A stretch of 64,000 nucleotides of DNA from Xiphias gladius. Taxonomy: Eukaryota; Chordata; Actinopteri; Istiophoriformes; Xiphiidae. The notes under the pieces are model-generated. The model worked only from the letters and a program-made list of their open reading frames with translations, was not told the origin of the DNA and did no database searches. Within the stretch, counting starts at the first letter, position 1. Each line of letters opens with the position of its first letter. Below, one piece after another: positions 54,959 to 60,900 of the stretch. The stretch spans positions 21,406,206 to 21,470,205 of the forward strand of contig NC_053417.1 of NCBI RefSeq assembly GCF_016859285.1, given 5' to 3'. The position numbers were made by a program, and so were the translations under genes.

Positions 54959-57900
54959 TCAGTTGGCTGCCAGTCCAGTAGCTTCAGAAGACAGCCTGAG
55001 GAGCACACACAGAAAAAAAGAGAAACACTTCAACCTTAATATTTGATTACAAATACAGCAAATTAAATATTTAGGTTGTGACATGCTGCTTGACGTGTCG
55101 CTGTATTTTAAATGCGACGACCACTTTGACAGTTGTGTAGTAAAAAATTTATCTGAAGTCTCACTGGACCTTCAAACAATCTGAGTCTAAGGGAGTAAAT
55201 GCAAGTTCAGCACGCAGTGTGACACAATGACTTCAAATCCGGAGTTGCAAGAAAAATATTTTTCATACACATATTTACTTCTTTGATATTTTTTATCGTG
55301 TCCAAAATGGGACTTATGGTCTGTAAAAACTGAGCTGGCTGATGCTCTAAGTAATAATTACATTACCCCTGATCCTACTTTCATCCATCCTTTCATGTAG
55401 GTTAGTGCAATACAAAGTTGTTCTTTGGGACCAATGCACACATGAAATTAAAAAAAAATGATGAAAATGTAACAATAAAACCAATAAAATACAGTTGGGA
55501 TATAAGTATTTGGACAGTGACATGTTTTTCATAACTTCGGCTCTGTACACCACCAGACTGGGTTTGAAACAAAGCCATCAAGATGTGATTGAAGTGTAGA
55601 CTTCAAGCTTTAATCCAAGGGGTTTCCCAAAAAATATCACATTAGCTGTTTCGGAATCACAGCCATTTTTAATACGTAGTCCCTCATTTTCAGAGGCTCA
55701 AAAGTAATTGGACAATTGACTTGACAATCAGTTTCATGGCCAGGTGTGGCCTGTTCCCTCCTTATTTCATGACAAATTAAGCAGAAAGAAGGTCTGGAGG
55801 TGATTCCAGGTGTTGAATTTGCATTTGGTAGCTGTTCATGGGAACTCTCAACATGCAGTTCAATGAGGTGTCAATGCAAATGAAGGAGTTCATCATTAGG
55901 CTGAAAGAACAAAACCAACCTATCAGACAGATGGCAGAAACTTTAGGGGTGGCCAAATTAATAATTTGGTACATTCTTAAAAAGAAAGAGTGCACTGGTG
56001 AGCTCAGCAACGCCAAAAGGCCTGGAAGACCACTGAAGACAACTGAGGTGGATGATCACAGAACCCTTTCCATGGTGACCAAAAACCCCTTCACAACATC
56101 TAGCCAGGTCAAGAACACCCTTGAGGAGGGAGGCGTATCATTGTCAGAGCCTACAATCAAGAGACACCTTCATGAATGTAAATACAGAGGGTTTACAACA
56201 AGGTGCAAACCACTTGTAAGACTCAAGAACGGGAAGGCCAGATTAGAGTTTGGCAGAAAACATCTAAAAAACCCTGCCCAGTTCTGAGAACAAGATTCTT
56301 TGGATAGGTGAAACCAAGATTAACTTGTACCTGATTGATGGGAAGAGAAGCGTTTTGTTTATTGATGATGTGACTCATGATATAAGTAGCAGGATGAATT
56401 CTGAAGTGTATAGGGCTATACTCTCTGCTCAGATCCAGCCAAAAGCTGCAAAACTGAGAGGATGGTGCTAAGCAACCGTGAAAGCAACCCAAGAGCTTCT
56501 CATGGTAAAGAAATTGAATATTCTTCAATGGCCAAGTCAGTCACCTGACCTCCACACAATTGAGCCTGCTTTTTCACTTCCTGAAGACAGAACTGGGGGC
56601 AGAAAGACCCACAAACAAGCAGCAACTGAAGGCAGCTGCAGTAAAGGCCTGGCAAAGCATCTCAAGGGAGGAAACTCAGCATTTGCTGATGTTCATGGGT
56701 TCCAGACTTCAGGCAGTCATTGACTGCAAAGGATTTTCATCAGAATATTAAAAATAATCCTTTTATATAAAACTATGTGGATTTGTCCAATTACTTCTGA
56801 GCCTCTGAAAATTGAGGGACTAATTATAAAAATGGCTGTAATTCCTAAACAGTTAATGCGATATTTTTGTTAAACCCCTAAAGCTGAAAGTCTCCACGTC
56901 AATCACATCTCGATGGCTTCATTTCAAATCTATTGTGGTGGTGTACAGAGGCAAAATTACAAAAATTGTTTTGCTCTGCTTATACTTTTGTACCTACCTG
57001 TAGATTAAAAAAAAAAAAAAGTAAGAAAAAAAAAAATGGAGCAAATAAAGATGGAATAAAAACATTTTAAAAACATTAATATAACTAAATAAATGATGAC
57101 ATAAAAAATAAAATAAATAATGGCCATGAAACGTTCTAATCTAAAAGGAGGGCTAAACAGGAAGGTTCTCAATTTAAATTAGGTTTACTTAAAACCTACA
57201 CAGTTATCCAAATGGGACTTCACATTCTATTTCTTTACATTTTACAGTTTGAAGTAGGGTAATGTAATTATTGGTCAGGTCAGTTTTTACAGTCTGTTAT
57301 TTCCAGCACTGGAAAGAAATTCTTCTGTTTTCCCTCCCGTTAGGTGATCACTAAAAGCTGACTGAAGTTATAATAGTCTGATGTGAAGAAAGCTTTGTTT
57401 AACTTCTACCAGTTTCATTTTTTAGGAGGGAGAACTTCCTCTCTTTTCTCCTATTAATGTAATCATAAGGGCACTCAACATAGTTTGTGACTTACTGGCT
57501 TAATGGACACATGATAAGAAAACACAAACTCAGTTGGATGTGTTGCAGTAGCCTCTTTCTTACCGGGCATTGATCAGGTACTCAGCCAGGCTGATGCTAG
57601 CATGGGAGCCAGTGATGGTGACCTGTCTGTCAGTTGAGCCCTCCACAGGGTTGGCAATCTTGATCTGAGCCCCTGACATCTGACGGATCTCATTTATCTT
57701 TGCGCCCTGACGGCCAATGATGCAGCCGATGAGCTGAAAGAAAAAGGAAAACACCTTGAATCCCAGCAGGCAAATAATGGAAAAACCAAGAAAACGGGCT
57801 ATTTAAAAAAAAAAAAAATGTAAGAAAAAAAAATGGAGCAAATAAATATGGAATAAAAAAATTTTAAAAAAATTAATATAAATAAATAAATGATTACAAA

Positions 57901-60900
57901 AAAAAAAAAATAAATAATGGCCATGAAACGTTCTAATCTAAAAGGAGGGCTAAACAGGAAGGTTCTCAATTTAAATTAGGTTTACTTAAAACCTACATAG
58001 TTATCCAAATGGGACTTCACATTCTATTTCTTTACATTTTACAGTTTGAAGTAGGGTAATGTAATTATTGGTCAGGTCAGTTTTTACAGTCTGTTATTTC
58101 CAGCACCGGAAAGAAATTCTTCTGTTTTCCCTCCCGTTAGGTGATCACTAAAAGCTGACTGAAGTTATAATAGTCTGATGTGAAGAAAGCTTTGTTTAAC
58201 TTCTACTAGTTTTATTTTTTAGGAGGGAGAACTTCCTCTCTTTTCTCCTATTATTAATAATCATAAGGGCACTCAACATAGTTTGTGACTTACTGGCTTA
58301 ATGGACACATGATAAGAAAACACAAACTCAGTTGGATGTGTTGCAGTAGCCTCTTTCTTACCGGGCATTGATCAGGTACTCAGCCAGGCTGATGCTAGCA
58401 TGGGAGCCAGTGATGGTGACCTGTCTGTCAGTTGAGCCCTCCACAGGGTTGGCAATCTTGATCTGAGCCCCTGACATCTGACGGATCTCATTTATCTTTG
58501 CGCCCTGACGGCCAATGATGCAGCCGATGAGCTGAAAGAAAAAGGAAAACACCTTGAATCCCAGCAGGCAAATAATGGAAAAACCAAGAAAACGGGCTAT
58601 TTAAAAAAAAAAAAAAAAAAAGGCATCATATTTCTCTGCTAATACCAAAGACAGTAAATAAGCAAAAGGAGATAAATGCGACTTACATCGTTTGGAATGG
58701 TCAGCTCATGAGAGCCAGTTTGTGCAGAGGCATCCATCCCAGCTTAAGAAATGCAAAGAAACCCCATGAGAGTGTTGACTAAGTGGATTATTACAAATCT
58801 ACAGCAATCACATTCCCTCTTTCAATCTGTCCACCTACCCTGGAAGCCCTGGTTGCTATGTGCAATGGGGAAGGGGCTCTGCTGCATGGCCAGCTGGTGA
58901 AGTTTGGTGAGCTTTTGAAACAACGGAGGAATAGACATGGAGAGCAAACAAACACAGACAGACAGAAACAATGAGTGAGGAAAAATTTGAAAAGACATCA
59001 AAACTGAAATATTGTAATTATTTCCCTTTTGTAAGTGGTTATTGTGATGATGAGAGGAAAATGTGAAATGGAACACGGGACCCATAATTTAGCCTAAAGT
59101 TTCCCAAAAAAAAAAAAAAAATGTTGATGTTAGCATTTTTCTATACAATCTTTGGAAATATTAAATGGATGTGTCTATCAAGCAGTGGTGGTTGGGAAAA
59201 AAAAAAAAAAGAGCCAGAGGGGTGAAATAAGAAGGTGGCATGGCTTCCCAGGACCGTAGTTACAAATATATTAAATCACTTACAGAGGGCCCTTCACTTA
59301 CATCAGGCTGTGGAATGGCGTGCTGCCCTTGGACAGCATATGCCTGGAAGGAGAGAACAGCACTCAGGAGGGCGTGGCAGTGTCACACACACTTTACTCC
59401 AATATCTATCAGTCCTCTGTCCTTGGTGTGCTATAAGAACAAAGCCAGGCATGCTACAGACAGCACACCAGCTACTAGAACGATAGCTCATGTATAATTT
59501 AATTCCTTTGACCAGAACTGCTTCAGGACAAAGTGGGAGCATCTTTCAACAAAATCAGTGGACACTGCATGGCCAAATCTTACCAGTGACAAATCTAGAG
59601 GAACAAACATAGAAATACGTTTGTTGTTTACCTGACCACCTGCAAAGATGACAGGAGAGCCTGAGGGTTTGGGTCTGTATGGGATAGTCACTCCCTTTGG
59701 TGGAGACTAAGAAAACAGAAACATTCACCATTGAAGCAGCATCAACAGCAACACAAAAAGTCACAAATCATCAACAGTAGCAATAAGATTCACTGCAAAT
59801 TTTCAAAAGAGTTAAAGCACAATAAACACTGTCTGTACCTCAAGCATGACGACACAGATCTGCTTGACACACTCAATAATGGACTGAGGGGTCCCTGCAA
59901 CGGTGATGGCACGCTCTGTTGAGTTGGGCAACATGTCCCCTGCTACTTGTACCTGAGCTCCTGCTGACTGTGGAAACACAGACATCAACAACAGGCGCTA
60001 GGACACAACAGAGATAAGACACAAGTTCAAAACACTGCAAAGAAATATGATGACAAACCTCTCTGATCTCCTTGATCTTGCAGCCACCCTTGCCAATGAG
60101 TGAGCCACACTGGCTGGCAGGCACAACGAGGCGCATGGTGACTGGCGGTTTGCTGGTGGCCGTACTGTTAGTCATTGAGGTGCTGATGTCCTAGAGGGAA
60201 AGCGGCAGGACCAGATAACATTGAAAATTTGAAACTTTTAAATCCACTGTTATAATGTGGAAATTTAAGATGCAGCAAGCAACTCTAACCTCCTCCAGTT
60301 TCTCAATGATCATGGAGAAGGCTTTGAAAATGGAGGTCGTGGGTCCCGCAAGGGTTATGATCCTCTCCGGACAATTCCCCTCTGATATGTTGATGCGAGC
60401 ACCACTCTGCACAAACAGTAGATCAAAACAGGGAATATCAAATCAGTCACAGTGTTATCATGTGATGCACGAGTCAATGTCACTGAAATTATAAACATGT
60501 CTCTTCTCGTTTGCCCAAATGTTATAAAAAAAACATATCTTACCTCCTCTCTCATCTTCTTAACTGACTCTCCCTTCTGTAAGGAAAGCACAAGTACACA
60601 ATATTTACAAAACACACCAAGGGACAAGATGTAGATAGTGTCACTGGCAGTAAAAACAAACTTACCTTGCCAATGATGCTTCCAACCTCCTGCAGAAGAG
60701 ACGAAATGCATGTTAAAGTAATAAATGTATCCTTCATGGCCACCAGCAGAGACAACTTGAGTTTGTTTTCATTTTACAGTGACTACGGTGCAATGTTCCT
60801 TATTGCATTGGAGAATGAATGCAGACTTCAGAGTGGGCTTAGATTTCAAACTTGTCAAAAAACATTGCCTGCAGTCACACTCACCTTCCCATGCATGAGT

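Follow-up and report, generated by a model that had tools for sequence, protein, structure and literature searches.

Tandem duplication of exons within a gene is already known, including cases in which the joint use of both copies is cleared by nonsense-mediated mRNA decay (NMD). In human genomes, internal duplications have been put at 0.001-0.013 per gene per million years (PMC7605655), so that young cases are to be expected. For the duplicated exons of U2AF1, minigene RNAs that were expected to escape NMD gave more both-exon or neither-exon products than the endogenous transcripts did (PMC5224494), and the authors who described the dmrt1 duplication of Solea senegalensis did not see it in any of forty-five further fish species (PMC7605655). 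Duplications can also be false, the signs being half depth, gaps, discordant reads, and single-copy k-mers; such false copies are mostly separated by gaps and are at times connected by unsupported sequence (PMC9516828). Here, we describe a repeat within pcbp2, a gene whose predicted product fits the poly(rC)-binding protein family, in a 64,000-nucleotide (nt) stretch of the Xiphias gladius assembly GCF_016859285.1 (contig NC_053417.1, a 30.6-Mb sequence referred to as C18; C18:21406206-21470205), which we call the window. The exon encoding the third KH domain (KH3) of pcbp2 stands there twice. At a probability of roughly 0.5, we read the repeat as a real, recent 798-bp tandem duplication of an ordinary kind, expected to yield largely NMD-prone mRNA.

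A head-to-tail repeat carrying the KH3 exon

Self-BLAST of the window paired positions 57005-57818 with 57803-58616, head to tail at an offset of 798 bp, with 97.9% identity over 816 columns. By alignment and self-BLAST, the repeat resolves into unit 1 (57007..57804, minus strand), which is the downstream copy in the gene, and unit 2 (57805..58602, minus strand), the upstream copy. Each unit contains a KH3 exon of 170 nt on the minus strand, i.e., 57564..57733 in unit 1, as recognized from the exon map, the splice sites, and a Pfam KH_1 match, and 58362..58531 in unit 2, as placed by the exon map. The two exons share the same acceptor and the same donor and differ at 0 of 170 positions, and at the 798-bp offset the identity extends from 57460 to 57818, a block of 359 nt comprising the exon, its splice sites, and intron on both sides. 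An earlier note, made from the letters of this DNA, had described two direct 798-bp units that each carry an identical 170-nt KH3 exon; alignment, self-BLAST, and the exon map agree with that description. With head-to-tail copies of an exon and its flanking intron inside one gene, the locus has the structure of a tandem exon duplication. When direct repeats of at least 150 bp and at least 93% identity within 5 kb were counted as duplications, the 64-kb window held the pcbp2 repeat and no other, and none of 20 further 10-kb stretches, taken at fixed places (5.00-5.01 Mb of C1 to C20), carried a comparable one. The repeat is thus not a product of chance.

The gene itself lies on the minus strand, from 60953 down to 54959, with twelve coding exons in a map that was drawn by eye and guided by the PCBP2 protein. 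Its splice signals are consistent throughout (acceptors AG in 11/11, donors GT in 11/11). Coding exons 1 to 9 occupy 58839..60953, coding exon 10 (our own numbering) lies at 58687..58742 and ends ...AAC GAT in phase 0, and the coding part of the last coding exon, which supplies an 11-residue tail and the stop, is at 54959..54995, all on the minus strand. Spliced with a single KH3 exon, the transcript encodes 318 amino acids (aa) with three stretches matching Pfam KH_1. The best match of KH3 among solved structures was that of PCBP2 KH3 (2p2r; E 5.6e-37), ahead of PCBP1, in a ranking that drew on solved structures and in which PCBP3 and PCBP4 did not take part. Judged by its sequence, the product fits the PCBP family, having three KH_1 domains of which the third is nearest to PCBP2.

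Genome-wide searches, covering the 690.8-Mb assembly with its 1298 contigs, placed the KH3 query at six sites, namely, the two pcbp2 copies and four diverged loci of 74-81% identity (C21 at 12.46 Mb, C13 at 3.47 Mb, C18 at 18.83 Mb, and C21 at 1.80 Mb). Each of these four loci contains one KH3 exon in the 3.2 kb that was fetched per locus, and in all four the exon fits a length of 170 nt, bounded by AG at the acceptor and GT at the donor. The frame-shifting length is therefore family-wide, and the doubling is peculiar to the pcbp2 locus. The paralog at C21 12.46 Mb (L003, C21:12463473-12466650) has the same KH3 protein sequence, by alignment, at 55 of 57 exon residues and may be a candidate for redundancy with pcbp2. 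Among viral and prokaryote contigs, 21 and 113 pattern matches to the KH3 exon were obtained, of which none was confirmed as a relative, as is expected for an animal gene. Among the papers listed by our literature searches, there was no report of a doubled pcbp2 KH3 exon; for KH3 exon skipping in PCBP2 or a PCBP2 poison exon, the listed papers gave none either, judging by titles and the openings of abstracts.

Origin of the repeat

The edges of the units fall in A-tracts: unit 1 is bordered on its left by A14 (57007..57020), a second A14 marks the unit junction (57805..57818), and unit 2 is bordered on its right by A19 (58603..58621). At the junction, the sequence that precedes the right-hand tract (CTATTT) meets the sequence that follows the left-hand one ((T)GTAAG), which is the pattern that an exchange between two A-tracts would leave, bar one altered base beside the tract. 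Tracts of at least 13 nt number 11 in the window and take up 176 of its 64,000 bases (0.275%), with 4 of the 11 inside the repeat; given this rarity, it is unlikely that the repeat edges lie in A-tracts by accident. In our reading, the duplication would have come from an exchange, or from slippage in replication, involving two poly(A) tracts that lay about 800 bp from each other in the introns flanking the KH3 exon.

Six base pairs short of the left A-tract of unit 1 ends a Tc1-like element (55492..57000) that lies in the intron after KH3 and is recognized by TA at both ends, inverted arms, a Pfam HTH_Tnp_Tc3_2 match, and other genomic copies. Its arms agree at 157 of 182 aligned bases and differ at 25. 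At least 161 matching pieces were counted in the genome, the element itself included, with scoring applied to 40 of 3569 candidates; in that set, other copies matched over long spans at no more than 86%, and short pieces at up to 93% over 135 bp. On these comparisons the element is probably old. A recent Tc1 insertion that differs between haplotypes is accordingly disfavored as the source of the unit edge, given the 25/182 differences between the arms and the ceiling of 86% on long matches. It may be, as speculation, that the element made the site fragile. For the terms used, our literature search on A-tract exchange and on Tc1-linked tandem duplication returned no paper.

Differences between the units are unevenly spread. 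Unit 1 and unit 2 differ by A versus T at 57020, and unit 2 has two A fewer at 57026-57027. Seven transversions follow at 57050-57109 (against 57847-57906), in a zone of 15% G+C that adjoins the junction A-tract; in five of the seven, unit 2 has lost a G or C, and the remaining pair are T-to-A changes. Within the 340 bp after this cluster fall four single differences (57201, 57310, 57410, and 57416) and one small complex change (57457-57459). The cluster near the A-tract is thus denser in differences than the remainder (7/99 versus 5/698; P = 0.0002), and it could have come from error-prone repair or from poor consensus sequence.

The exon's freedom from change, which the earlier note said may reflect constraint or simply youth, can be explained by the second of these. 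Outside the A-rich zone, the exon is not measurably cleaner than the intron (0/170 versus 5/528 differences; P = 0.34), so youth suffices for its identity and purifying selection is unsupported as the cause; moreover, the identical block spans flanking intron as well. That flanking intron taken by itself gives 0/188 versus 5/340 (P = 0.17, or P = 0.054 counting seven differences), and the whole identical block gives 0/358 versus 5/340 (P = 0.027, or 0.006 counting seven), a contrast that was picked after viewing the data. This last contrast suggests an uneven spread of differences across the units, e.g., by conversion.

Summed over all the readings considered here, we regard it as somewhat better than an even bet that the duplication is real, whether fixed or segregating. 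The strongest competing explanation, which the earlier note had already named and which stands, albeit weakened by the lack of N runs, is a false duplication, in which the assembly ran one haplotype on into the other, or one version of a haplotype into a second version with both bearing errors, the seam lying at a poly(A) tract. We assign this explanation a substantial chance that stays short of even. Several observations weigh against a real duplication and would fit a join. The divergence between the units (97.9%; beyond the A-rich zone, 5 to 7 events over ~700 bp) lies within the allelic range and fits two alleles of one animal, the edges of the repeat are homopolymers, and the seven differences clustered beside the junction all lower G+C or raise A in unit 2, which may reflect poor consensus. 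Divergent haplotypes are moreover the chief source of false duplications, false exon duplications have been documented, and false copies sometimes stand in one gapless stretch whose connecting sequence lacks read support (PMC9516828). A further point is that PCBP2 is essential in mouse embryos (PMC5829739), and a fixed, mostly decaying allele should therefore face counter-selection.

Against a join, there is no run of N in the 64-kb window or in the 10 kb on either side (at least 84 kb in all), which favors a real duplication. No comparable duplication occurred in the 200 kb of other assembly sequence, so that the assembly does not seem to abound in such duplications, and the Tc1-like copy is without a near-identical relative among the 40 candidates scored out of 3569, so that a fresh haplotype insertion is an unlikely cause of the edge. 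The intron of the unit was found at two places genome-wide, both at the pcbp2 repeat. The missing third copy is predicted by a join too and is neutral between the two explanations, because joining both haplotypes would leave none either. Should the repeat prove to be a join, it would belong to a documented kind of error that could lead annotation software to invent an exon.

Some other features were recorded in passing. A second DDE transposon fragment (Pfam DDE_3) lies at 63222-63347 on the minus strand, upstream of the 5' end of pcbp2, and short Gly-X-Y-like coding repeats, which we read as those of a putative collagen gene, lie on the plus strand at 8464-23165. In L025 (C11:5000000-5009999), one of the 20 comparison stretches, positions 2559-3058 are 500 consecutive N, perhaps an assembly gap, and directly after them comes a tandem-repeat array of ~82% likeness.

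Predicted transcripts and choice between the copies

The introns before, between, and after the KH3 copies measure 155, 628, and 2568 nt, respectively, and all three begin GTAAG and finish CAG. The nearest AG upstream of the KH3 acceptor is at -23, so that a branch point close to the acceptor is expected. As the copies differ only in their position and in outer intron sequence, intron lengths and equal splice sites suggest that both are mostly spliced in or that a mixture forms, and this would be the default of the duplicated allele.

Inclusion of either single copy gives the same 318-aa protein. Because both copies encode the same protein, choosing one adds no diversity. The exon length of 170 nt is 2 modulo 3, and translation confirms that double inclusion shifts the frame, with copy-to-copy splicing producing CGC and then TAA 12 codons further on, much as the earlier note had it (about 12 codons). 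The note went on to conclude that double inclusion truncates the protein and that full-length protein requires the choice of one copy; translation does not bear this out. The double-inclusion product has 319 aa, agrees with the single-inclusion protein through residue 307, where the KH3 exon finishes, and then has 12 new residues in place of the normal 11. Its KH3 is complete (the Pfam KH_1 match reaches profile position 65 of 66), and the tail alone is replaced.

The expected cost is instead one of mRNA decay. By the usual rule, a stop that lies more than 50-55 nt before the last exon junction makes a transcript a target of NMD, and our NMD calls rest on this stop-position rule. The double-inclusion stop sits 130 nt ahead of the last exon junction, and the mRNA is thus predicted to be an NMD target and to be mostly lost. 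If the duplication is real, a stop arising from copy-to-copy splicing in the penultimate coding exon would cost mRNA and not protein. Skipping of both copies leaves 253 aa, with a stop that ends 12 nt into the last coding exon; by the position rule, such a KH3-less transcript would not undergo NMD, provided that the 3' untranslated region is without an intron (introns there were not looked for), which reverses the earlier note's view of it as NMD prone. Taken together, the first interpretation of the doubled exon is partly supported.

If the duplication is real, the allele would amount to a partial loss of pcbp2 output and may be segregating, with the 319-aa, altered-tail message mostly removed by NMD. 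The loss could be buffered by the close C21 paralog together with whatever single-inclusion mRNA forms.

Is one copy chosen over the other? The suggestion of a mutually exclusive pair is consistent with an exon length that is not a multiple of three, which is one described route to mutual exclusion; the splice sites and intron lengths offer no mechanism for it. Steric exclusion needs far shorter spacing than that between the KH3 copies, and the 628-nt intron, with its upstream AG at -23, speaks against a steric block. Incompatibility of U2 and U12 spliceosomes is not indicated by three introns that are all GTAAG...CAG, nor does the coding sequence diverge in a way that would supply different isoforms. 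At present, we do not read the doubled exon as a regulated switch. With exon, splice sites, and protein unchanged, any choice of one copy must stem from position, RNA folding, or NMD.

For RNA folding, we identified a candidate docking site, D (55321..55368, minus strand), in the intron after KH3, and two candidate selectors of the same sequence, i.e., S1 in unit 1 (57257..57292, minus strand) and S2 in unit 2 (58054..58089, minus strand); all three are weak candidates. The corresponding proposal is a nascent mutually exclusive pair, in which the duplication would have doubled one side of a stem that existed before it, so that D could pair with S1 or S2; D:S2 pairing would place the unit 1 exon in a loop, and an mRNA with a single KH3 would result. 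Between D and each selector there are two colinear, perfectly complementary blocks of 16 and 13 nt, with a modeled duplex energy of -39.8 kcal/mol. In the predicted minimum-energy fold of 3784 nt, D pairs with S2, and blocking S2 shifts D to S1 at a predicted cost of 4.2 kcal/mol. The alignment score was equaled by 2 of 500 shuffles (strict scoring) and the energy of the duplex by 1 of 144 (windowed), and the arrangement has the geometry that was modeled in PMC6071210 as an origin of mutually exclusive exons.

Controls temper this proposal considerably. The D:S site was found after several pairings had been tried, and under strict scoring the same-sense control scored 30 versus 33 for D:S. With looser scoring, the best alignment fell elsewhere, was reached by 136 of 300 shuffles, and lay below the same-sense control (27 versus 33). 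Real pairs of window segments, which were not matched in composition, formed a duplex as strong in 97 of 144 cases; real pairs reached the alignment score in 4 of 300 and a z of at least 4.3 in 7 of 300, versus the observed 3.6, a value that falls between their 95th (2.7) and 99th (5.5) percentiles. An ungapped-helix scan of the D:S intron pair, the best of four pairs, gave 5/100, and a whole-intron duplex test over four pairs gave 16 to 77 of 100. In addition, the D:S loops would span 1.9 and 2.7 kb, and folds this long are predicted unreliably. We therefore consider a nascent pair of this kind to be improbable. Slightly less probable again is the fuller model of an exclusive pair caught at birth, in which two identical selectors would compete for one dock, folding would loop out one KH3 and rescue normal mRNA before any coding divergence, and NMD would clear the double-inclusion mRNA.

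The least probable of the alternatives is that the second copy works as a poison cassette through which Pcbp2 protein lowers its own mRNA: double inclusion does put a stop 130 nt ahead of the last junction, which the position rule predicts to trigger NMD, PCBP on a C-rich polypyrimidine tract raises CDK2 exon inclusion (PMC5829739), and many RNA-binding proteins regulate themselves via unproductive splicing (PMC6547761), but the tract before the KH3 exon is U-rich (5 C in 30 nt, no CCC), the copies are too similar for selection to have shaped them, and PCBP occurs 0 times in the main text of PMC6547761.

Comparison with described systems

If real, the pcbp2 duplication would be a time-zero case for the process by which out-of-frame tandem exon duplications turn mutually exclusive, and several described systems resemble it in part. 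Like the false heterotype exon duplications of PMC9516828, it consists of allele-like exon copies close together in one assembly; it differs from most of them in that no assembly gap lies between or beside the copies. The exon II-III duplication in dmrt1 of Solea senegalensis is likewise a teleost tandem exon duplication with a mobile element at its edge, and its exons II and II' are an identical pair (PMC7605655). In that case, however, the duplication exceeds 10 kb, the cDNA contains both copies, which extend its reading frame, and the proposed cause is a SINE (short interspersed nuclear element).

Mutually exclusive exons governed by competing RNA structures share with pcbp2 the tandem duplication of an exon with its flanking intron and, possibly, of one stem arm too (PMC6071210). 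By contrast, the pcbp2 copies give identical protein, and the candidate stem is weak. In U2AF1, an RNA-binding splicing factor, exons Ab and 3 likewise form a tandem exon duplication, and there transcripts containing both exons are lowered by NMD (PMC5224494). The U2AF1 copies have diverged, encode two isoforms, and are unlike in branch-point organization, whereas the pcbp2 exon and its flanks are identical between the copies. Consistently, the pattern obtained with the U2AF1 minigenes (PMC5224494) fits the double inclusion, cleared by NMD, that we would expect in pcbp2.

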